Below, in pieces: positions 8,869-23,695 of a stretch of 44,924 nt of DNA; position 1 is the first letter of the stretch, and the number at the start of each line of letters is the position of its first letter. A model generated the notes under the pieces. The model was given only the letters and a program-made list of their open reading frames with translations, was not told where the DNA came from and made no database searches. The DNA lies in contig CALMML010000099.1 of NCBI GenBank assembly GCA_937868485.1, positions 1 to 44,924 of the forward strand, written 5' to 3'. This DNA comes from an uncultured Myxococcales bacterium. GTDB taxonomy: Bacteria > Myxococcota_A > Polyangia > Palsa-1104 > JAEUJZ01. A program made the translations under genes and the position numbers.

Positions 8869-8907
8869 CCTGAACATTTGATCTGTTTAGCCTGAACGCA
8901 TGTTTAG
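8869..8907 (+). promoter_or_regulatory. LexA (SOS) operator over the imuA start codon, with an upstream imperfect copy
   Basis: CCTGAACGCATGTTTAG (8891-8907) is the reverse complement of CTAAACATGCGTTCAGG. That fits every position of the Myxococcus xanthus LexA consensus as I remember it (CTRHAMRYBYGTTCAGS). The box contains the imuA ATG at 8900. Directly upstream, 8869-8890 starts with the same CCTGAAC and ends with the same TGTTTAG, but with five extra bases between them. A possible -35, TTGACC, lies at 8866-8871. A repressor bound here would cover the transcription start and the start codon. Confidence 0.7.
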
Positions 8908-9640
8908 CCAGTTGGCGCGGGTCAAGCAGCCAGATCAGACGCTGATAGAGGCAGTGGTCAGCGACGAAGATCCGCTGGCTCAGCGGCAGGCGGCGCTGGC
9001 CCAGCTACGTCGGGCGTGTCGCAGCGATCTGGGGCGATCGACAGAGCCTCCGTTCCCAACTGGCTGCGAGGTCATTGATGCGGCGCTTCATGGTGGCCTG
9101 CCGCGCGGTCACATGGTGGAAGCGGTAGGTAAAGTGGGGCGGTTGTCGCTGGCGCTGAACGTGCTGGCGCAGGCGACGCAGCGACGCGAGCTGGCGGTGA
9201 TGATCGATGGTGCCGATGCGCTCGATCCACGCAGTGCAGAAGAGCTTGGTATTGATCTGCGACGACTGCTGTGGGTTCGGGTGAAGAAAGGTAATGACGC
9301 GCTGCGGGCGGCGGATATGGTCCTGTCGGCTGGTGGGGTGTCGCTGCTGGTTCTTTACCTGGTCGAGCAGAGCGATCCGCAGCTGGCGATGCGAACGGCC
9401 CTGTGGACGCGGCTGGGACAGCGAACGCAGCGCGCCAAGGCTTCGGTGCTGATCTGTGCGGACAAGCCGCTCGCGCAGAGCTTTGCGGTGGCCACGCTGG
9501 GCGTTCACAACGATGGCGTGCGCTGGCAAGACGCGCCGGGCGGACGCGGACAGCTTGCCGCGCGACAGGCTCGCATCGAGGTGCTGCGCAGTCGTCTGGG
9601 CGCACCCGGGGACAGCCAGCCGTGGTGCCTTCGCAAGTAG
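8900..9640 (+). CDS. imuA: ImuA, RecA-like accessory protein of the translesion mutasome
   Basis: This 246-residue protein has the RecA/SulA-like fold of ImuA, seen in the order GCEVIDAALHGGLPRGHMVEA, IDGADALDP and a central WVRV strand. The Walker A site is degenerate: the position reads EAVGKVGRLSLAL rather than a GKT/S P-loop. ATP hydrolysis is therefore doubtful. The gene is followed by imuB and dnaE2, the standard SOS mutagenesis cassette. ImuA is thought to help recruit the ImuB-DnaE2 polymerase complex to stalled forks. No Shine-Dalgarno precedes the ATG, and the LexA-type box overlaps it. The gap to imuB is 11 nt. Confidence 0.92.
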   Translation: MFSQLARVKQPDQTLIEAVVSDEDPLAQRQAALAQLRRACRSDLGRSTEPPFPTGCEVIDAALHGGLPRGHMVEAVGKVGRLSLALNVLAQATQRRELAVMIDGADALDPRSAEELGIDLRRLLWVRVKKGNDALRAADMVLSAGGVSLLVLYLVEQSDPQLAMRTALWTRLGQRTQRAKASVLICADKPLAQSFAVATLGVHNDGVRWQDAPGGRGQLAARQARIEVLRSRLGAPGDSQPWCLRK

Positions 9641-9651
9641 GAGCCAATGTC

Positions 9652-11142
9652 ATGTCACTGACCTGCGAGCGAGTGGCTTGTCTATGGATTCCGTCGTGGT
9701 CGCTTCAAGCGCTCTTGCGGGCGCGGCCCGAGCTGCGTGCCCAAAAGGTGGTGGTCAGCGACGGACTGTTGCCCAGCTCGCTGGTGCTGGGTGCGACGCT
9801 GCCGCTGCGTCAGCTGGGCGTGCGAGTCGGTCAGACGGTGGCGCAGGCGCGCAACCTGTGTGCAGAGCTGCAAGTTCAGGTGCTCAGCGACGCGAATCGT
9901 CAAGCAGCCAAAGATGCGCTGTACGACGTGGCGTCGGCGTTTTCGCCGGTGATCGAGTGTGGCGATGGCTTCGTGCTGCTCGGTGTGGGCGACATGGCAA
10001 AGCTGTTTCCCGACGAAGAGACGCTGGGCAAAGCGCTGCTTTTGCAGGCCGAGTCGGTGCGGCTTCACGGTCGCGTTGCGATTGCCAGCTCCAAAGAGAC
10101 GGCGAAGCTGATTGCCAAGGCGCGTGCCGATGTGACGGTGATTCGTCGCGGCGATGAAAAGCTGTACCTGCGCGCGCTGCCGCTGTCGGTGCTGCCGCTG
10201 TCGGCGGCGCATGCGCTGCTGCTATCGCGGTTTGGGCTGCGTTCACTCGGGGACTTGGTGGCGCTGCCTCGGACCAAGCTGCCGACGCGGCTTGGCAAAG
10301 AAGGGCTGCGGCTGCATCGCTTGGCGTCGGGGGAAGATGACACGCCGCTTCAGCCGACGGCGCCGCCCGTGGAAGTGTGCGAATCGCTTGATCTCGACGA
10401 GCCGGAACAGAACCTAGAGCCGCTGCTGTTTCTGCTGCGCGGCCTGGTGGATCGCATGATGGCGCGGCTGCGGGCGATGAGCCTGGCTTGTGGCGACTTT
10501 GTCGTCGAGCTTCTCGAAAGACCGCATGGTGTTCGCCGGGTGGAAGTGAAGGTGGCGACGCCGACGCGAGAAGTGGCGACGCTGACGGAGCTTTTGCGGC
10601 TCAGCTTGCAAGCGCATCCACCCGAGGCGGAAGTGCGCGGTCTGGTGGTGCGGACGATGGCGCAGCGACCGCGACCGCTTCAGCTTGGACTGTTCGACGG
10701 GGAACAGCTGCTGCCCGAGCGACTGATGACGCTGATTGGACGGCTACAAGCGCTGTGTGGCGACGGAAAAGTCGGGCAAGCGGTGGCAGCAAACTCGCAT
10801 CTGCCGGGGCTGTGTGACGTGGTTCCGCTCAATCCACCGACGAAGCGAGAGCAAGACGACGTGGTGTTGCCGCTGAGTCCGTCGCCGAAGATGGCGCTGC
10901 AAATGCTGCGGCCTCCTCGGGCTGCGACGGTGCGTGTCAGTGGTTCCAAGCTGCTTCACCTGCACAGCGACGGGCTAAGCGGTCCGGTGCTGCGCTCGGG
11001 CGGACCGTACAGGATTCGCGGCAGCGTCGGAAACGAAGGTCTGCGCGACTACTACGACGTCGAACTTCCCGGCGGAGAAGCGCTGCGGCTGTTCTTTGAT
11101 CGCGACGAGGGCAACTGGTTTCTCGACGCGCGTTACGACTGA
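9652..11142 (+). CDS. imuB: ImuB, catalytically dead Y-family polymerase homologue of the mutasome
   Basis: I start at ATG 9652, which has AGGAG ten bases upstream overlapping the imuA stop. A longer in-frame reading from 9403 lies inside imuA and is not credible. The 496-residue protein has the Y-family palm, fingers and little-finger order. The active-site positions are lost: the usual D-x-D-A-F is replaced by LWIPSW near residue 12, and the S-x-DE pair by LLGVGDM near 110. This is the hallmark of ImuB, which acts as a scaffold linking the sliding clamp, ImuA and DnaE2. LQLGLFDGEQLLPERL (near 344) is a region where a clamp-binding peptide (QLxLF) could lie. Only 8 nt separate it from dnaE2. 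Confidence 0.93.
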   Translation: MSLTCERVACLWIPSWSLQALLRARPELRAQKVVVSDGLLPSSLVLGATLPLRQLGVRVGQTVAQARNLCAELQVQVLSDANRQAAKDALYDVASAFSPVIECGDGFVLLGVGDMAKLFPDEETLGKALLLQAESVRLHGRVAIASSKETAKLIAKARADVTVIRRGDEKLYLRALPLSVLPLSAAHALLLSRFGLRSLGDLVALPRTKLPTRLGKEGLRLHRLASGEDDTPLQPTAPPVEVCESLDLDEPEQNLEPLLFLLRGLVDRMMARLRAMSLACGDFVVELLERPHGVRRVEVKVATPTREVATLTELLRLSLQAHPPEAEVRGLVVRTMAQRPRPLQLGLFDGEQLLPERLMTLIGRLQALCGDGKVGQAVAANSHLPGLCDVVPLNPPTKREQDDVVLPLSPSPKMALQMLRPPRAATVRVSGSKLLHLHSDGLSGPVLRSGGPYRIRGSVGNEGLRDYYDVELPGGEALRLFFDRDEGNWFLDARYD

Positions 11143-11150
11143 GAGGGTGG

Positions 11151-14100
11151 ATGATGACTAGACCGTCGCGCTACGTCGAGCTTCGCTGCAAGAGCTGGTT
11201 TTCCTTTTTGCAGAGCACCGTCGATCCCGAAGATCTGGTGACGGCAGCGGTGTCGGCGGGCTATTCGGCGCTGGGGCTGGTCGATGCGGGCAATGTCTCG
11301 GGGCTGCCGCGCTTTCACAAAGCGGCGCAGCAGGCGGGCATTTCCCCGATCCTCGGCGGTGAAGTGATCGTCGATGGCGCGCCGCTGTCGCTGTTTTGTG
11401 AGTCGGCGCAAGGCTATCGCAACCTGTGTCGGCTGATCTCGACGCAGCACAGTGCCGAGCGTGGCGGTCGCGGGCTGACGCTGTTTGACCTGGAGTCGCA
11501 TCACGACGGGCTGATTGCGCTGACCGGCGGTGGTGAAGGCAAGATCGGCGGGCTCATCGACGCGGGAGAGCTGGAGCAAGCGGCGCGCAAGCTGGATGTG
11601 CTGACTGGAATCTTTTCGCCGCAGAACCTGTACGTCGAGCTTCAGCTTCACTTCGACGAGCAAGAAGATCGTCGCAATGCGGTGTTGCAGGCGCTCGCGT
11701 CGGAAAAGCGCGTGCCGCTTCTGCTGACCAACGATGTGCGGATGATCGGTCGCGACGAGCTGCTGCTGCTCGATGCGCTGACCTGTATTCGTGAAAAAGT
11801 CGAGCTTGCAGCGGCGGGGCGACGGCTGGCCAAAAACGGTGAGCGCTTCCTCAAGCCGGTGTCCGAGATGCTGGAGCTGCTGCCCGATCTGCCCGATGCG
11901 ATCCAGCGCACCGTCGAGATGGCCGAGCGCTGCCGGTTTTCCTTTGCCGACTTGGGCTATCGCTTTCCGCAGTATCCGCTGCCGCATGGGGAGTCGCAGG
12001 AAGAGTTCCTTCGCGCGGTGGTGTTTTCCGTCGCTGGCGATCGCTTTCGACCCTACGACAAGCGCGCCCACGATCAGCTGGAGCGAGAGCTGGGACTGAT
12101 CTGCAAGCTCGGGCTCAGCGGCTACTTTTTGATCGTCTGGGATCTCATCGAGTTTTGCAAAAGTCGCGGAATCCTGGTGCAAGGCCGAGGCAGTGCTGCA
12201 AACTCTGCGGTCTGTTTTGCGCTGGGAATCACGGCCTGTGATCCGCTGAAGATGGATCTGCTGTTCGAGCGCTTTCTGTCCGAAGAGCGTGGAGAGTGGC
12301 CCGATATTGATCTCGATTTGCCGTCGGGAAGTCGCCGCGAAGAAGTGATTCAGTATCTGTATCGCAAGTACGGTCCTGCGGGCTGTGGACTGACCGCGAC
12401 GTTTACCACCTATCGAGCGCGCAGTGCGGTGCGCGATCTGGGCAAGATATTAGGACTTTCGCAGGACGCTATTTCGCAGCTCGCCAAGCGTGTCAGTCGC
12501 TTTGGCGACGAGATGGGCGCGCACGGATCCGGGATTCCTGATGCGCCAACTCCGTTTGTGGATCACGTTCGTGGCGTTGGGCTGGACCCCGAAGAGCGGA
12601 GTGTGAGTCAGCTGATCAAGCTGTACGAAGACATCGCAGACATCCCGCGTCACATCGGACAGCATCCGGGCGGAATGATCATCGCAGCCGGTCGTCTCGA
12701 CGAGATTGTCCCGATTCAGCCTGCGTCCATGCCCGGTCGCGCCATCATTCAGTGGGACAAAGATGACTGCGCGGATCTGGGAATCGTGAAGATCGATCTG
12801 CTCGGCTTGGGAATGATGGCGGTGCTGGAAGATGCGACCAAGATGGTGCCATTTCACGACGGACAGCCGTTTGATATGGCAGCACTCCCACGAGACGATC
12901 ACGCGGTCTATCAGATGATCTCGCGGGCCGATACGGTCGGTGTGTTTCAGGTAGAGAGTCGCGCGCAGATGTCTTCGTTGCCGCGTACGCAGCCGCGCAA
13001 GTTCTACGATCTGGTGGTGCAAGTGGGCCTGATTCGGCCCGGTCCCATCGTCGGAAAGATGGTTCATCCGTACCTCAAGCGCTGCACCGGAGAAGAGCCG
13101 GTTTCCTATCCGCATCCTTCGCTTGCTCCGATCCTAGAGCGCACGTTGGGAATCCCGCTGTTTCAAGAGCAAGTGATGAAGATGGCGATGGTTGCAGCGG
13201 GCTTTACGGGCGGACTTGCGGATCAGCTACGCCGCGCGATGGACAGCAAGCATGGCAACCGAAAGATGCGTGCGCTCGTCGACAAGCTGCGAGTAGGAAT
13301 GCAGCAAAAAGGGATTCCCAAAGAGTCCGCTCAGCAGATTGAACAAGCGATCACCGCGTTTGCGCAGTACGGATTTCCAGAGTCACATGCGATCAGCTTT
13401 GCGTGGCTTACGTACGCAAGCGCGTATCTGAAAGTGCATCATCCGGGGGTGTTTTACACCGCGCTGCTCAACGCATGGCCGATGGGATTTTATCATCCCT
13501 CGACGGTAATTCGCGATGCCCAGCGACAAGGAGTGATCATTCGTCCGATCGATGTCTGCAGCTCGCAGTGGCCGTGTTCGATCGAGCACAGTGCCGATCG
13601 CGAGGTTGGATACTGGACTGCGGATGCACCAGACAACGTGATTCCGTTTGATCGATCGCCTTGGCATGCGGCTCCGTATGGCGTCAAGACACCACCTGTT
13701 TCCAAGGTGCTGCGGCTCGGTCTGCGCTATGTAAACGGACTACGTCGCTCGTCGGCAGATGCGATTTTGAACGCGCGAGCAGAGCGTCCGTTTTCCGACA
13801 TATCCGATCTGATGAATCGCTGTCGCGGTCTGACCCAAGAAGAGCTGACACAGCTTGCAGAGCTTGGCGCGCTCGCATCCCTTCAGCGCAGTGAGAGTCG
13901 TCGTGATGCGATGTGGCAAGTCAGCAAGTGGCAGCGTCAAAGCTCGCTCGATCTGACGGAGACAGAGCAGGAAGATCCGTCGCCGCTGCGTGAGATGTCA
14001 CAGCTTGAAGAGCTGCAAGCAGACATGCAAGGAAGTGGAGTCAGCACAGGTCCGCATCCGCTTTCGCTGGTTCGTTCCGCACTGCAAGCGCATGGCGCAG

Positions 14101-14441
14101 CTCCGATTGCAGCGCTGGCAAGTCGCGCACATCGAAGCCACGCGCGCGTCGCGGGATTTTGCATCATTCGTCAGCGTCCACCGACGGCGAAAGGCTTCAT
14201 GTTCCTGACGCTGGAAGATGAAACAGGACTGCTCAACGTGGTGATCAGTCCGCAGCTTCTGACTGCGCAGCGCGCTGTGATCTACGCCACGCGCAGCTTC
14301 GTGCTCGATGGTGTGATTGAAAAACAAAACGGTGTGGTGCAGCTTCGCGCAGAGCGAATTGTCAGCTTGGACAAGGTGCTGGAAGTGGTGGGAAGTGACG
14401 AGCTGGTGAGATCAGACAGCGACGGAAATCGCTACGGATAG
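11151..14441 (+). CDS. dnaE2: DnaE2 (ImuC), error-prone C-family DNA polymerase
   Basis: The 1,096-residue length fits DnaE2. Polymerase catalytic Asp residues are intact: PDIDLD gives D385 and D387, and KIDLLGL gives D549. The VQGRGSAANS helix and the C-terminal OB fold (about 1000-1060) are also present. The N-terminal PHP domain is degenerate. LRCKS (12-15) stands where an H-x-H pair is expected, VDAGN (44-48) replaces TDH, and TNDVR replaces NDVH. Metal-dependent nuclease activity is therefore unlikely. DnaE2 performs SOS-induced translesion synthesis in the cytoplasm with ImuA and ImuB. GGGTGG just before ATG 11151 serves as ribosome site, and a second ATG follows at once. The stop lies one base from the stop of the convergent hydrolase. 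Confidence 0.96.
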   Translation: MMTRPSRYVELRCKSWFSFLQSTVDPEDLVTAAVSAGYSALGLVDAGNVSGLPRFHKAAQQAGISPILGGEVIVDGAPLSLFCESAQGYRNLCRLISTQHSAERGGRGLTLFDLESHHDGLIALTGGGEGKIGGLIDAGELEQAARKLDVLTGIFSPQNLYVELQLHFDEQEDRRNAVLQALASEKRVPLLLTNDVRMIGRDELLLLDALTCIREKVELAAAGRRLAKNGERFLKPVSEMLELLPDLPDAIQRTVEMAERCRFSFADLGYRFPQYPLPHGESQEEFLRAVVFSVAGDRFRPYDKRAHDQLERELGLICKLGLSGYFLIVWDLIEFCKSRGILVQGRGSAANSAVCFALGITACDPLKMDLLFERFLSEERGEWPDIDLDLPSGSRREEVIQYLYRKYGPAGCGLTATFTTYRARSAVRDLGKILGLSQDAISQLAKRVSRFGDEMGAHGSGIPDAPTPFVDHVRGVGLDPEERSVSQLIKLYEDIADIPRHIGQHPGGMIIAAGRLDEIVPIQPASMPGRAIIQWDKDDCADLGIVKIDLLGLGMMAVLEDATKMVPFHDGQPFDMAALPRDDHAVYQMISRADTVGVFQVESRAQMSSLPRTQPRKFYDLVVQVGLIRPGPIVGKMVHPYLKRCTGEEPVSYPHPSLAPILERTLGIPLFQEQVMKMAMVAAGFTGGLADQLRRAMDSKHGNRKMRALVDKLRVGMQQKGIPKESAQQIEQAITAFAQYGFPESHAISFAWLTYASAYLKVHHPGVFYTALLNAWPMGFYHPSTVIRDAQRQGVIIRPIDVCSSQWPCSIEHSADREVGYWTADAPDNVIPFDRSPWHAAPYGVKTPPVSKVLRLGLRYVNGLRRSSADAILNARAERPFSDISDLMNRCRGLTQEELTQLAELGALASLQRSESRRDAMWQVSKWQRQSSLDLTETEQEDPSPLREMSQLEELQADMQGSGVSTGPHPLSLVRSALQAHGAAPIAALASRAHRSHARVAGFCIIRQRPPTAKGFMFLTLEDETGLLNVVISPQLLTAQRAVIYATRSFVLDGVIEKQNGVVQLRAERIVSLDKVLEVVGSDELVRSDSDGNRYG

Positions 14442-17437: not shown

Positions 17438-18223
17438 TTAGCGACCGCTCACCATCGCGCTCACGACCTTCAGAAACTCTGGCTCATCGAGCGTCGAGGT
17501 CACTGCGTAGCCGAGCCCGCGATCGCGGAAGACGGCGACTTGATAGCCGCGTGCGTCGGACAGAAAGACCTCGCGGTTGCCAATGACGGTGCGACGGGCT
17601 TTCAGATCCAGACCTTGCGGATCGAACACAAACACCGAGATCGGCTGACCACTTTGCTGATAGCGCAGGAGCACCGCTTCGCGATCGCCCAGGTTCGACA
17701 GCCGACCACCTTGCAGCACAGCGACGGGCTCAAGCTGCGGAGCGGGAACCATAAACGGCACTTTGCCCGCAAACCACGAGCGAACCTTTTCCGGCTCTCC
17801 CGTCACATCAAGCGGCAGCGGCAGCTGATGGCGCGAGATCATCGCATCGACGACCACCGGCGGACGATCGCTGTGATCGAGTCGCGCGGTTCGCAACCCC
17901 GGCATCACCAGCAGCCCGGCGAGCGCCCCAGCAGCCAGCATCACCGACGGCTGCTGCCAGAAGCGCGACAGCCACGATCCTTGCGCGGCCTGCGACTTCT
18001 GATCTTCATCGTCGAGACGCTCGCTGACTTTGCGGCGCAAGCTGCTGGGACTCGGCGTCGAGACCGCTTCGCGTAACACCCGGCGCAGCTCCCGTCGAGC
18101 CTGAACCAAGCGGTTGCAGCCCGGACACTGGCTCATGTGTCGCTCGTGCATCAGCCGATCAGAGGGCAGAAGCTCTCCGTCTACCAAGCTTTCAAGGTCG
18201 CGTTCGAGGTCGCTGCACTGCAT
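17438..18223 (-). CDS. zinc-finger (ZAS) anti-sigma factor, membrane-anchored
   Basis: The 261-residue protein begins with an anti-sigma zinc finger. H29-x3-C33-x2-C36 is the ZAS motif, and Cys3 may be the extra ligand. A linker is followed by one hydrophobic helix (about 91-110), which places the C-terminal 150 residues outside the cytoplasm as the likely sensor part. Its gene lies 10 nt after the ECF sigma gene, the standard arrangement for a sigma factor and its inhibitor. The inducing signal is unknown. The neighbouring transglycosylase suggests envelope stress, but that is inference. Confidence 0.9.
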   Translation of the reverse strand: MQCSDLERDLESLVDGELLPSDRLMHERHMSQCPGCNRLVQARRELRRVLREAVSTPSPSSLRRKVSERLDDEDQKSQAAQGSWLSRFWQQPSVMLAAGALAGLLVMPGLRTARLDHSDRPPVVVDAMISRHQLPLPLDVTGEPEKVRSWFAGKVPFMVPAPQLEPVAVLQGGRLSNLGDREAVLLRYQQSGQPISVFVFDPQGLDLKARRTVIGNREVFLSDARGYQVAVFRDRGLGYAVTSTLDEPEFLKVVSAMVSGR

Positions 18224-18233
18224 GGCTTATCGG

Positions 18234-18884
18234 TTAGTTCTTGTTGCTTGCTCGTCGAGGAAGTGGAATGACTCGGCCCGGTTCACTCTGTTTGTTTGCT
18301 GATTCGTCCTTGATGATACCCGAGCGAATCGCATGATCGCGCAGGGCACTTTGTAGCAGACGACGGCCTCGATGTAACCGGCTCATCACCGTGCCGACCG
18401 GGCAGTCCATGATGTCGGCGATCTCTCGATACGAAAACTCTTCCACGTCGCTGAGCAGCACAGCCAGGCGAAACTCTTCCGGCAGGCTCGTCAGCGCTTG
18501 CGCAATGGCGTCGGACATCAGCTGAAAGTGCAGCTTGTCTTCGACATCGTGGGCTTGGTGGAACTGGCTCGACGACAAAATCCCTGATTCACCGCTTTGC
18601 ACCATCCCGGTCGCGACCTCTGTTTCGAGGACGCGCCGACGGTACTTGTTGATGAACGTGTTGGTCAGGATCTTATAGAGCCACGCCTTGCAGCGCGTGC
18701 CTTGCTGATACTGATCAAACGATCGGTACGCTTGCAGCACCGCATCTTGGACCAGATCTTCCGCATCGCGAGGATCGTGGGTCAGGCGCAGCGCCGTCGA
18801 GTACAGCGCATCCAGATGAATGAGCGCTTCCTCTTCAAAGCGTGCGCGCTGGGTCTGCCCCTGCTTCTTCTGGCGATCGAACAT
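18234..18884 (-). CDS. ECF (group 4) RNA polymerase sigma factor
   Basis: This 216-residue protein has the two ECF domains. Region 2 covers about 22-85, with [17 protein letters not shown] and the -10-reading [15 protein letters not shown] segment. Region 4 covers about 130-185, with [19 protein letters not shown] and the helix-turn-helix [15 protein letters not shown] basic tail follows. It directs RNA polymerase to a stress regulon when released by the anti-sigma factor encoded next. Its own promoter region (18885 onward, read on the minus strand) has TTGAAA followed by TGGAAT 17 bp later, a loose housekeeping match. A TACGTT hexamer also lies eight bases before the ATG. Confidence 0.95.
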
Positions 18885-19767: not shown

Positions 19768-20259
19768 TTAGCTGGGGAACGGAACGCTGATGCAGCTTGC
19801 GGAGCAGTTGGGATCGTTTGAGCTTGTGCGGGTATAGCGAGCAAACGGAATCCTGGATCGGAGGGGGGAGATGGCGGCTCCTTCGATGGCTAGCTCGTAG
19901 CGATCCCCGTCGGTGAGAAGCTCTGGCTGGCCGATGACATGCACGCGAAAGGCGCCGCTTTGGGCATCCAGCGTGATGGCCACCGTGAGCGGACCGATGA
20001 TGTGGCCGCTGTAGCTGCCGGAGCCGCTTGCAGAGAGCTGGCTCTTGGCGCAGACCTCATTGCGACAGACGGTGACGGTGATGTTTTGGGGGTCGATTGT
20101 GGCCAGCGGAAGCACCGCATCGTAGACGGCTCCACTGAGACAGCCGCTCGGAATGCAGGTGACACCGACGGGACTTCCAGAGGGAGAGAGGGCTCCTGCG
20201 CTGCCACAGCCGAAGAGCAGTGTCGCTAGCAGACAGGCCGTGGCGGAAGCCGTCGTCAC
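19768..20259 (-). CDS. small putative lipoprotein, third gene of the FHA operon
   Basis: The frame is open far upstream into the FHA gene, but the real start is probably GTG 20259. That GTG overlaps the TGA of the upstream small gene (GTGA) and begins a lipoprotein signal ending in LLFGC with Cys18. The mature protein of about 145 residues is rich in Ser, Gly and Thr and has six or so Cys. The C-terminal part reads as beta strands, for example ITVTVCRN and AFRVHVIGQPELL. I recognise no family. The genomic link with the RHH-FHA protein and the 55-residue membrane protein suggests a shared envelope task, which is inference. It ends 21 bp from the convergent marR stop. Confidence 0.7.
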   Translation of the reverse strand: MTTASATACLLATLLFGCGSAGALSPSGSPVGVTCIPSGCLSGAVYDAVLPLATIDPQNITVTVCRNEVCAKSQLSASGSGSYSGHIIGPLTVAITLDAQSGAFRVHVIGQPELLTDGDRYELAIEGAAISPLRSRIPFARYTRTSSNDPNCSASCISVPFPS

Positions 20260-20423
20260 GGACGCGCCATCGATCGCGACAGCCGATGCAGCACATAGCC
20301 GATGATCATCGTCAGGGAACCAGCCATCGGGAAGGTGTGAATCACACCGAAGCGTCGCAGCAGAATCATGGCACCGCCGACGACAAGAAGAAGGATTCCG
20401 AACACAGAGAGCGTGGATCGCAT
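20256..20423 (-). CDS. 55-residue membrane protein (short ORF)
   Basis: Reading the minus strand from ATG 20423 gives a 55-codon frame closed by TGA at 20256-20258. It is short and easily missed. The protein has two hydrophobic helices, about residues 5-22 (LSVFGILLLVVGGAMILL) and 32-45, separated by an RRFGV turn. It ends in a basic segment HRLSRSMARP. This resembles DUF2905-type small membrane proteins, but I cannot confirm the family. The ATG lies five bases after the FHA stop, and the TGA overlaps the lipoprotein GTG, so the three genes look translationally coupled. Confidence 0.75.
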   Translation of the reverse strand: MRSTLSVFGILLLVVGGAMILLRRFGVIHTFPMAGSLTMIIGYVLHRLSRSMARP

Positions 20424-20428
20424 GGCTG

Positions 20429-21184
20429 TCACGGCTGATAGGTAAAGCGTAGCTCGAAGTCGCAGATGAAGAAGGTGTCGCCTTCATCGATGCGCTTGTT
20501 GTCGATGCGCATGCCTTTGAACTCGATGCCGTTGGTCGACCCGAGATCTTTGATGTAGTAGACACCATTGCGACGCAGAACCACGGCGTGCTGACGTGAG
20601 ATGTTGCCGTCTTTGATGGCCAGATCGGCGGTCTTGCTGCCTCGTCCCACGACGAACTGATCTTTGTCGATGAGGATGCGCTGGCCTTGAAACAGAAGGT
20701 ACAGCGGTGGGGCAGGGCTTTCGTTGGCGGGGCCTCCCCAGCCGGACGTTCCCGTCGGTGGAGTCGGTGGTCCAGCGGTCGGCGGCGGGGCGGGCAGCGC
20801 GTTGGCTCGCGGCATCGTTCCGATCGAAGGTCGCTGCTGCGGCGGCGGATATCCCATGCTGGTGCTCGGCGTCGGACGCTCTGCCGGTCCCGATGGAACG
20901 GGCGTTGACGCAGGAGGACGCTCGAATCGCTCGCTGCGCTGTCCCGACGGAGTTCCCGTGCTGCCGCCCATGCCTGGCCCGCCTGGACCCGCGGTGGTGA
21001 TCTGACTGCCTGACGTGCTACCCGACGGAACTTGATAGTTCTTCGAGCGGGCGTAGATGCGCATGGCTTCGTTGACGAGATAATCGACCGAGCAGTCGAA
21101 GTCGGCGGCCATTGCCTCGAACGTCTCCCACAGGGCGTCTCGGCAGTAGAAGTGGCGCATCGTCTTCTTGCTTTGGTTGTCCAT
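20429..21184 (-). CDS. ribbon-helix-helix plus FHA domain fusion protein
   Basis: The C-terminal 90 residues form an FHA phosphothreonine-binding domain: GRGSKTADLAI (about 180), NISRQHAVV (194) and LGSTNG (214) carry the conserved Arg, Ser, His and Asn. Residues 8-47 read as a ribbon-helix-helix DNA-binding unit: a short strand RHFYC, a helix around ALWETFEAMA, a turn DCSVDYL, and a helix NEAMRIYARS. A roughly 110-residue Pro/Gly/Ser linker joins the two. A DNA-binding dimer controlled by a phosphorylated partner is a reasonable inference. A Ser/Thr kinase gene lies 16 kb away. I start at ATG 21184; a GTG directly before it (21187) is possible. It leads the operon with the small membrane protein and the lipoprotein. 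Confidence 0.85.
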   Translation of the reverse strand: MDNQSKKTMRHFYCRDALWETFEAMAADFDCSVDYLVNEAMRIYARSKNYQVPSGSTSGSQITTAGPGGPGMGGSTGTPSGQRSERFERPPASTPVPSGPAERPTPSTSMGYPPPQQRPSIGTMPRANALPAPPPTAGPPTPPTGTSGWGGPANESPAPPLYLLFQGQRILIDKDQFVVGRGSKTADLAIKDGNISRQHAVVLRRNGVYYIKDLGSTNGIEFKGMRIDNKRIDEGDTFFICDFELRFTYQP

Positions 21185-21218
21185 CACCGATTCCCTCGAC
21201 GTCGCACCTTCCAGCGAT

Positions 21219-21245
21219 CGCCTGTACCAAGAGGGACTACAGGCG
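21219..21245 (-). promoter_or_regulatory. leader hairpin before the FHA operon
   Basis: CGCCTGTA (21219-21226) and TACAGGCG (21238-21245) form a perfect 8-bp stem with an 11-nt loop. It lies about 35 bases upstream of the FHA start on the minus strand. No U-run follows, so it is more likely a leader structure or dyad operator than a terminator. Confidence 0.4.
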
Positions 21246-21457
21246 AGCTAGTGAGGCGACATAATGGCCGGTAGCCTAACCGCGCAGATCACAAAGGTCA
21301 AGGCTACGCCCCGAGAGCGAGGCGTCAGCGCGAAGGCTGCTGGGCGCACCACCCGCGCGACGAAGCTGGGTCGAAACGGCAGGGATTTCGCGCACCTCGG
21401 TGCAGAATGAATCGCGGGCTTGGGCTCGTCTGTCTCCGTCGGGATTTCCTAAGCAAA
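21246..21457. other. gap between the divergent FHA and barrel genes
   Basis: This is most of the 330-bp region between the FHA gene (minus) and the outer-membrane barrel gene (plus). I see no gene in it. ACGCC (21306-21310) and GGCGT (21321-21325) form a short 5-bp dyad with no clear role. The readable promoter for the barrel gene lies directly downstream. Confidence 0.4.
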
Positions 21458-21486
21458 TTGGCACTTTACGGGCTTCTTGTGATAAC
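21458..21486 (+). promoter_or_regulatory. promoter of the barrel-accB operon, sigma-70 or sigma-54
   Basis: TTGGCA (21458-21463), a 17-bp spacer and GATAAC (21481-21486), with a TG one base before it, form a good extended sigma-70 promoter. The same DNA also reads TGGCAC-n5-GGGCT (21459-21474). This keeps the -24 element perfectly, and the -12 GC at the correct distance, of a sigma-54 promoter. AGGAG at 21502-21506 then precedes ATG 21515. Confidence 0.55.
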
Positions 21487-21514
21487 TAGCGGCGTCATTT
21501 TAGGAGCCCTCAGG

Positions 21515-23125
21515 ATGGACCACGCTACTTCGCCAAGACGGACGCTTACCTCGATGGGCTGGCAACGCAGGCCAGCCTGGCACGATCGGGCCAAGACCTG
21601 GGCCTTCCTGCTGCCGATGAGCGTGCTGGCGTCCGCTGCTCCTGCGCTGGGCAGTGACTTCGTTGATACGCGTCTGAACGTCACGCTGACCAACGAAAAC
21701 GTGCTGGCCGCGCCGGGAGAGACGAATCCGCCGGTTCCTGGCTGGCGCTTCGATCGTCCGAACCAGCTCGGCGTGCTGTTCTTCGACAACTACGACACGC
21801 GCTTTACCGGCTATGAGAGCTTGACGCACATCGTGCTCTACAAGGCGATTCAGCGTCAGCGCTGGGAAGGTGAAGCGGCGTACGTGCTGCGGCTCCTTCA
21901 GTTTTCCGATGTGAACCTATCGTCCATCGACGACGGTAGCTACATCAAGGTCAACTATTACTTTGATCCGACGAGAACGCGACGGACGAACATCTCGCTG
22001 ACGGCGTTTCCGCTCAACTCGGACCGGATGCGGCTCGGCTATTCGTGGCGTCTGTCGTGGGGTGGCTCGCCGATCTTCTTCAAGGCAAATCCCGACGTTC
22101 CGACGAACCTGAACCCGCCGCCGACGCCGCCGGTTCCGGGCTTGCGCGTGCAGATTGCCGACGACAGGTGGTATGCGTACTTTGGCGCGAAGACCTCGGT
22201 GCTGCGCTACGAGCAGGATCAGGAACTTCACTCGGTGTACGGACTGCTCGGCGGTGCGGGTGTCGATCTGGTTCCGGGGCACCTGCGACTGGAAGCAAAC
22301 GGCGGATTCTTTGACAGAGGCACGATTCCTCGAGTGCTGACGCAGCGACTGCCGGTTCAGACGTACGGTGTGTCGGTGCAGCTGTCGGCGTGGGATCGAC
22401 TTTCACCGTCGCTGTCGGCGGATACGGCGCTGTATCGCAACGATCCGAACAGCGCGGCACGCTATCTGACAAAGCCGTTTTATACGCCGGGCGTGTCGTG
22501 GCTGCTGATGAGCGAGTTCACCGCCGAGGCGACGACGCTGGAAAACCCGGATCAAGCTGAGTCGAGCCGTGCGCAGTGGGGCCTGGCGGGCGACGTGAAC
22601 TTCCGTCTGCAATATGGCAACTTCCGCTATCGTCTCGACGCGATGTATCGATCGCTTCAGTACCTGCTCGTCAATCAGCCGAGCTTGGTGCCGTTCCAAG
22701 ACTTTCCGACGGGCGCTGGCGTCGAGATTCGACCCGAGCTGTTCGCTGCGACGGGCGTTGATTACTTCATCGAAAAGTCGGGCACGACGGTGGGCCTGAC
22801 GCTCGGTGTCGATCGTCCCGCGAGCTATAAGCCACCGACGGGCGCGGTCAATCCGATCGACTCGTCAGCGGCGATTCTGGTGGTGCGCAACCAAGGCGAT
22901 GTCGTGATTCTGCCGCCGGGACAAGACACGCTTCCCGCGATTGCGACGAAGCTGGCGGCGCGACAGGACTTTTTGGAAATGTTCGCGCTCATCGCGGAGG
23001 CCTATTACCAGTACGACCCGAACGGAACGATTCTTCGGACCGATCCGGCGACGCAGCTCAAGCAGCGGGTGTTTGAAAATCCGAATCGCCTGGGCTTTAA
23101 CTTCACACTTCAGGCACGCTTCTGA
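21515..23125 (+). CDS. outer-membrane beta-barrel protein of unknown function
   Basis: I start at ATG 21515, with AGGAG nine bases upstream. That gives 536 residues. A basic N-terminal region is followed by a signal peptide (about 32-51, cleaved after APALGS). The mature protein alternates short amphipathic strands throughout and ends in FNFTLQARF. The C-terminal aromatic Phe is the signal read by the BAM machinery for barrel insertion. Pro-rich loops such as LNPPPTPPVPG would be extracellular turns. I recognise no specific family, though an alginate-export-like or porin-like barrel is possible. accB follows after 33 nt on the same strand. Confidence 0.8.
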   Translation: MDHATSPRRTLTSMGWQRRPAWHDRAKTWAFLLPMSVLASAAPALGSDFVDTRLNVTLTNENVLAAPGETNPPVPGWRFDRPNQLGVLFFDNYDTRFTGYESLTHIVLYKAIQRQRWEGEAAYVLRLLQFSDVNLSSIDDGSYIKVNYYFDPTRTRRTNISLTAFPLNSDRMRLGYSWRLSWGGSPIFFKANPDVPTNLNPPPTPPVPGLRVQIADDRWYAYFGAKTSVLRYEQDQELHSVYGLLGGAGVDLVPGHLRLEANGGFFDRGTIPRVLTQRLPVQTYGVSVQLSAWDRLSPSLSADTALYRNDPNSAARYLTKPFYTPGVSWLLMSEFTAEATTLENPDQAESSRAQWGLAGDVNFRLQYGNFRYRLDAMYRSLQYLLVNQPSLVPFQDFPTGAGVEIRPELFAATGVDYFIEKSGTTVGLTLGVDRPASYKPPTGAVNPIDSSAAILVVRNQGDVVILPPGQDTLPAIATKLAARQDFLEMFALIAEAYYQYDPNGTILRTDPATQLKQRVFENPNRLGFNFTLQARF

Positions 23126-23158
23126 TCGCTCAGAACGCAGCCCCAAAGAGAAAACCGC

Positions 23159-23695
23159 ATGACGACCAAGAGGACGTCCGATTCATCCACCGCCGACACG
23201 CACAGCGAGTCGGTTCGTTCCGAAGGCACGCTGACGCTGGAGACGATTCGCTCGCTCGCGCAGGTTATGAAGGACTTCGAGCTGTCCGAGCTGGAGCTGA
23301 CGCAGCCTTCGGGTGAGCGCTTGCGCCTGTCGGGACGACGCACCGAGGTTGTGGCTGCTGCGCCTGTGGTTCATGCCGCGCCCGTCGCTGCTCCGAGCCC
23401 TGCTGCCGCTGCTGCGCCGCCCGTGTCTGGCAAAGCTCCCGTCGCAGACAAGAGCGTGACGGTGATCACTGCGCCGCTCGTCGGAACCTTCTATCGATCC
23501 GCCAGCCCGGAATCGCCCGCGTTTGTCGAAGTCGGCCAGCGCGTCAAGAAGGGCCAGACGCTGTGCATCATCGAAGCGATGAAGCTGATGAATGAGCTGG
23601 AGTCCGAGGTCGACGGTGTTGTCACTGCGATCCTCGGCGAAAACGGTCGTCCCGTCGAGTTTGGCGAGGCGCTCTTCCACGTCAAGACGGGATAA
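23159..23695 (+). CDS. accB: biotin carboxyl carrier protein of acetyl-CoA carboxylase
   Basis: This 178-residue protein has the AccB layout. The N-terminal helix (27-42, ETIRSLAQVMKDF) is followed by an Ala/Pro linker (65-95). The biotinyl domain (100-178) contains the biotinylated Lys142 in EAMKLMNE. Biotin on this lysine carries carboxylate between the AccC and AccA/D active sites, the first step of fatty acid synthesis. A 20-residue Ser/Thr-rich N-terminal extension is longer than usual. In most bacteria accC follows accB. Here the next gene, 5 nt downstream, encodes a secreted anchored protein, and the previous gene encodes an outer-membrane barrel, so accC must be elsewhere. Confidence 0.94.
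   Translation: MTTKRTSDSSTADTHSESVRSEGTLTLETIRSLAQVMKDFELSELELTQPSGERLRLSGRRTEVVAAAPVVHAAPVAAPSPAAAAAPPVSGKAPVADKSVTVITAPLVGTFYRSASPESPAFVEVGQRVKKGQTLCIIEAMKLMNELESEVDGVVTAILGENGRPVEFGEALFHVKTG

Follow-up and report, generated by a model that had tools for sequence, protein, structure and literature searches.

The unit conserved across the relatives of this uncultured Myxococcales bacterium is, judged from sequence, a single protein that joins a predicted N-terminal ribbon-helix-helix (RHH) head through a disordered linker to an FHA domain, and not the three-gene operon in which its gene is found in the window (the whole 44,924-nucleotide stretch of DNA analysed here). We put at about an even chance that this RHH-FHA protein is a dimeric, phosphothreonine-reading, DNA-associated adaptor that would work in the manner of EmbR with a head of the RHH type. 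Myxobacteria are rich in Ser/Thr kinases, but few readers are known in them that relay the signal to DNA. The RHH-FHA protein, usually single-copy, strongly constrained and carried by almost every sampled genome of the class, is a strong candidate for that role.

Architecture of the RHH-FHA protein

The gene occupies 20429-21184 on the minus strand (stop codon 20431-20429) and encodes 251 residues from an ATG at 21184, with a further in-frame GTG at 21187. The product divides into three parts, all encoded on the minus strand: the N-terminal RHH domain (residues 1-50, 21035-21184); a Pro/Gly/Ser-rich linker predicted to be disordered (residues 51-160, 20705-21034); and the FHA domain (residues 161-251, 20432-20704). 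In the model of the window protein, the linker has a pLDDT of ~45-70, and across the family it ranges from 28 to 224 residues with a median proline fraction of 0.26. The gene's dN/dS is ~0.10 (dN and dS divided) in a comparison of the three genomes of the genus. A preliminary description of this DNA had proposed an RHH-like head, a Pro-rich linker and an FHA domain on one chain, and the family profile, the structural model and the Pfam match together bear this out. Nothing relevant in the viral structure library matched the whole fusion.

The FHA domain matches its Pfam family over residues 178-238 (E=7.5e-14; 52.4 bits against a cut-off of 20.7), and most of it is modelled with pLDDT >93. Residues G180, R181, S196, R197, H199, N218 and G219 are invariant in 51 family members. 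The G-R, S-x-x-H and N-G motifs of FHA domains are the residues that bind phosphothreonine. The closest solved structures are those of EmbR (2ff4/2fez, E=3e-9), followed by OdhI and GarA; the FHA domain of ArnA is also among the structural matches. Judged by its intact site motif, the FHA domain of the window protein is predicted to be competent for phosphothreonine.

The N-terminal head

Taken alone, the first 55 residues of the window protein match no Pfam or NCBIfam family, and a single-sequence search of the head against PDB sequences returned chance matches only. Such single-sequence searches were set aside as misleading for this head, which requires a diverse profile. When a family profile of 53 head sequences is compared with an RHH_1 profile, the alignment covers both helices with a probability of 96%; a narrower profile-profile alignment of the head with RHH gives 87%. 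The RHH_1 profile consists of Myxococcota members, its seed being a consensus written by the analysts and then filled with PF01402 members found by search. As a control, 0 of 200 column shuffles aligned as well (score of 39.8 against at most 12.5). One divergent family member matches RHH_1 at E=0.0024, just under the cut-off of that profile, and other matches of divergent members are to Antitox_RHH (0.0026) and RHH_4 (0.0087). Weak matches to Arc-like repressors in PHROGs were obtained for 21 of 36 family members.

The AlphaFold monomer model of the head contains helices at residues 17-29 and 33-47 (pLDDT ~91-96) preceded by an extended segment. The RHH strand, placed at about residues 7-14, pairs only in the dimer and hence is not drawn in the monomer model. 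Structural neighbours of the model are CdbA, CopASO, CopG, Arc, MatP and PutA, and RHH proteins give the best PDB matches, with Z of 4-5; Foldseek E-values are weak (best 0.6, for CdbA), as is expected for a 50-residue monomer. With the family profile and an RHH-type model in agreement, the N-terminus of the window protein is predicted to be an RHH fold, as the preliminary description had supposed, although the window sequence alone lacks a Pfam match.

The conservation pattern of the head bears on what this fold would do. Positions K7, R10, C14, D16, W19, D34, Y35, L36, E39, M41 and Y44 are invariant in 79 distinct sequences, and position 8 is Thr or Ser in 78 of the 79. The invariant R10 and C14 occupy places where RHH proteins usually carry core residues. 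The expected DNA-facing strand positions (9, 11 and 13) differ between clades, Met or Leu included. The net charge is -1 over 50 residues, equal to the family median of -1, as compared to +2 for residues 1-40 of CopG. The absence of net positive charge would suit a phospho-scaffold that does not bind DNA, in which the RHH fold only dimerises or docks proteins and the product is a two-headed FHA adaptor with flexible arms. Variable DNA-facing positions beside invariant buried and helix positions likewise fit a protein interface, and Pro-rich arms suit a scaffold. Against this, the basic residues K6/K7, R10 and R15 bring positive charge near the strand; genes for DNA-acting proteins (recG, ftsK and smc) lie nearby in several clades; and RHH proteins of known function mostly bind DNA. 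Because the head carries a charge of -1 and its expected DNA-facing strand positions vary, the DNA-associated adaptor is held at about even likelihood, and the scaffold is retained as a possible, though less probable, explanation.

The structural neighbours raise another alternative: that the protein resembles CdbA, as a nucleoid protein and c-di-GMP receptor, with an FHA domain added. The head is matched best in Foldseek by CdbA from the same phylum (Myxococcus xanthus), a nucleoid protein with an RHH fold that serves as a c-di-GMP receptor and needs K8/S10 and R27/R30 for c-di-GMP (PMC7156744). However, the Foldseek match is weak (E=0.6) and common to many RHH proteins, and among PDB sequences there is no profile match to CdbA. 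Published CdbA positions were compared with the model helices and family columns, a comparison made without a direct alignment of the CdbA sequence. With the helices in register, K8/S10 and R27/R30 fall on M9, H11, D28 and C31; without the one-residue shift, they fall on T8, R10, A27 and D30. In either register, the window protein has no Arg or Lys at the equivalents of R27/R30. We regard a CdbA-like role as very improbable.

Distribution of the fusion

A survey of 284 genomes across the phylum Myxococcota detected the head in 103 of them, usually once per genome. Within the window's class, it was found in 56 of the 59 sampled genomes, four of these 56 matches being weak (E ~1e-3). The FHA motif is present in 95 of 96 complete genes; the lone exception (L107) looks frameshifted, with the FHA domain continuing in another frame. 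Even the most divergent homologues, with 25-35% identity in the head, retain the RHH-linker-FHA layout. Some genomes carry two copies in tandem. In one family of the class (L180 and L181, in G067 and G236), the tandem pair has diverged, and both copies have an FHA domain and an RHH-like head. The literature searched contains no description of an RHH-FHA or CopG-FHA fusion, an absence that is not proof of novelty.

The three-gene cluster of the genus

In the window, the RHH-FHA gene is followed by two small genes on the same strand. The first (20256-20432, minus strand) encodes a small membrane protein, either of 58 residues from a GTG or of 55 residues from an ATG at 20423, with two hydrophobic segments by hydropathy, one clear and the other weaker. 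The preliminary description placed the start of this gene five bases beyond the RHH-FHA gene; a conserved ATG does lie five bases past the FHA stop, but the alternative GTG start overlaps that stop in a GTGA. The second gene (19768-20259, minus strand) encodes a putative secreted lipoprotein of 163 residues without a Pfam or NCBIfam family. The N-terminus of this protein is hydrophobic over a short stretch and is accompanied by a Cys-Gly-Ser motif. The GTG start of the lipoprotein gene overlaps the TGA of the small gene, again as GTGA, so that the earlier claim of this overlap is confirmed.

All three genomes of the genus keep both GTGA overlaps (the other two being G265, locus L039, and G285, locus L040). 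Across these genomes, dN divided by dS is 0.19-0.28 in the small gene; the lipoprotein gene, the fastest-evolving of the three, has 0.29-0.37. Since the overlaps are kept and dN/dS is low, all three appear to be genuine genes subject to purifying selection. Weak relatives of the putative lipoprotein occur elsewhere in the window's genome and in the family. The small gene, present in 3/3 genomes of the window's genus, was found in 0/3 genomes from the family's other genera. Nor was it seen adjoining the RHH-FHA gene in the further loci examined, some of which are incomplete.

The region upstream of the RHH-FHA gene is conserved as a block within the genus. Alignment of the three genomes reveals a candidate promoter at 21273-21301 on the minus strand (TTGACC-17 bp-TAGGCT) with both hexamers identical in 3/3 genomes. 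This element could be the RHH-FHA promoter; a simple sigma-70 scan under a stricter rule listed no promoter upstream of the gene. Between the candidate promoter and the start codon lies a nine-base perfect inverted repeat, TCGCCTGTA-N11-TACAGGCGA (21218-21246). Eight bases per arm are kept in L039, and the repeat was not found in L040. It is a possible operator or RNA hairpin; a strong operator is not claimed, as the repeat is kept in one of the two relatives only.

The preliminary description combined these features into one transcript linking phospho-reading, DNA binding and the envelope. The RHH-FHA fusion at its centre is supported, and the three genes do occur together in 3/3 genomes of the genus; the conserved cluster is, however, restricted to that one genus. 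A single functional phospho-DNA-envelope system composed of the RHH-FHA protein, the 55-residue membrane protein and the lipoprotein would account for both GTGA overlaps, for purifying selection on three genes in three genomes, and for the conserved upstream block with its candidate promoter. Yet the small gene is confined to the genus while the RHH-FHA gene is nearly universal in the class, and the lipoprotein evolves faster than the products of the other two genes. Such a system is accordingly judged improbable.

Several other features of the window were recorded. Divergent from the RHH-FHA gene, at 21407-23695 on the plus strand, a gene for a 572-residue protein, without a family match and possibly located in the outer membrane, is directly followed by a BCCP gene (acetyl-CoA carboxylase biotin carrier). 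Downstream of the three-gene operon, past a convergent MarR-family gene, are an ECF-type sigma factor and then a gene with a weak zf-HC2 zinc-finger anti-sigma match (17438-18884, minus strand). Three genes in a row at 8900-14441 on the plus strand resemble an imuA-imuB-dnaE2 mutagenesis cassette; the middle gene matches the impB/mucB/samB (IMS) Pfam families, and the imuA and dnaE2 labels come from reading of the sequence.

Genomic neighbourhoods outside the genus

Outside the window's genus, a different arrangement is common. A gene for a HEAT-repeat lipoprotein of ~440 residues lies upstream of the RHH-FHA gene in 60 of the 76 loci with enough sequence, with gaps of -4 to 206 nt, and the two likely form one operon. 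In this lipoprotein, the signal peptide is followed by Cys-Glu-Lys or Cys-Lys-Val (for example, L044:6554-7867). Downstream of the RHH-FHA gene, recG is found in 24 of 64 loci, often within 30 nt, and smc in two loci; ftsK is divergently upstream in 15 loci, all belonging to one set of related loci. The older setting likely consists of the HEAT-repeat lipoprotein gene, the RHH-FHA gene and recG; some clades additionally have ftsK or smc close by.

In the window's own genome, the HEAT-repeat lipoprotein profile finds generic HEAT repeats only (E ~1e-7), whereas in a sister genus with the common arrangement it finds the gene at E=7e-132. The lipoprotein gene appears to have been lost from the window's genus, barring assembly gaps. 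Because it is detected in the sister genus and not in the window's genus, the RHH-FHA gene has probably left the older operon in the latter. The recG gene of the window's genome is on another contig (C333; the window is C99).

The preliminary description had pointed to the kinase at 37-38 kb as a potential partner. The draft genome (6.36 Mb) contains ~161 kinase-domain matches, about one per 40 kb; because of this frequency, a kinase 16 kb away is uninformative as to partnership. Kinase proximity was also discarded as functional evidence in the species collection (the best 80 of 251 loci): only 11 of the 80 loci lie in the kinase-containing cluster, no more than expected. In one locus of a sister genus (L050:7623-9359), a Ser/Thr kinase with a PEGA domain is encoded directly downstream of the RHH-FHA gene; kinases being so frequent, this may be chance.

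Proposed function

If the RHH-FHA protein is a DNA-associated adaptor, its operation likely involves: pairing of two chains through the N-terminal RHH heads, as the fold suggests; placement of the paired head on DNA; and capture, by a competent FHA domain carried on the long, flexible, Pro-rich linker, of a threonine-phosphorylated partner. The partner could be a Hanks-type kinase, a kinase substrate, or the protein's own phosphorylated N-terminus, and the ~161 kinase matches of the genome could supply the phosphothreonine. Phosphorylation would then determine which protein is present on the DNA, or whether the head remains attached to it. In the window's genus, the gene lies at a different place, as the first member of a small operon that is specific to the genus and also encodes a membrane peptide and a lipoprotein.

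Given the setting with the HEAT-repeat lipoprotein and recG, and the proximity of ftsK or smc in some clades, a role in chromosome maintenance is somewhat favoured over the regulation of a small number of promoters, a weak preference. Counted against the DNA-associated adaptor are the limited recG linkage (24 of 64 loci) and the weak Foldseek E-values of the head. A broader proposal, which we consider unlikely at present, is that the class and related Myxococcota share the protein as a core, near-universal phospho-reader associated with the chromosome, one that recruits kinase targets to DNA and links Hanks-type signalling to replication, repair or segregation. If true, this would constitute a kinase-to-chromosome pathway undescribed in bacteria in that form.

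Comparison with known systems

By profile and fold, the head resembles repressors of the CopG/Arc/MetJ type. These are mostly small repressors and antitoxins, and none of those seen here has an FHA domain. The CdbA/CdbB proteins share the RHH fold within Myxococcota, and CdbA is the top structural match of the head; in contrast to the RHH-FHA protein, CdbA is a stand-alone protein of 67 residues without an FHA domain, and its c-di-GMP residues are unmatched in the RHH-FHA protein.

GarA and OdhI are FHA switch proteins of actinobacteria that act on 2-oxoglutarate dehydrogenase. They are close to the window protein in FHA fold and sequence and have a flexible N-terminal extension, but they lack a DNA-binding domain. 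The conserved Thr/Ser 8 of the RHH-FHA head would allow self-binding, a speculative proposal. ArnA of Saccharolobus, a Zn-ribbon and FHA protein, is a repressor in the DNA-damage response with a phosphorylated partner (PMC10470591). It resembles the RHH-FHA protein in coupling a nucleic-acid-type head to an FHA domain and in acting on DNA with a phosphorylated partner; it differs in being archaeal, in having a Zn-ribbon head, and in that its own DNA binding was not detected.

The nearest counterpart is EmbR, in which a DNA-binding-type domain and a C-terminal FHA domain are likewise on one chain, and whose FHA domain is the closest PDB structure to that of the window protein (sequence match at E=3.9e-6). 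EmbR combines a winged helix with a second helical domain and is not known to have an RHH fold or a long disordered linker. The window protein, from a different phylum, instead begins with the predicted RHH fold and disordered linker and is without the winged-helix and bacterial activation domains. In Mycobacterium tuberculosis, EmbR is a DNA-binding transcription factor and a substrate of PknH and other kinases; it is controlled by kinases and regulates embCAB (PMC6213207). The RHH-FHA protein would thus extend a known kind of regulator, a DNA-binding-type head joined to an FHA domain, with a head of the RHH type.
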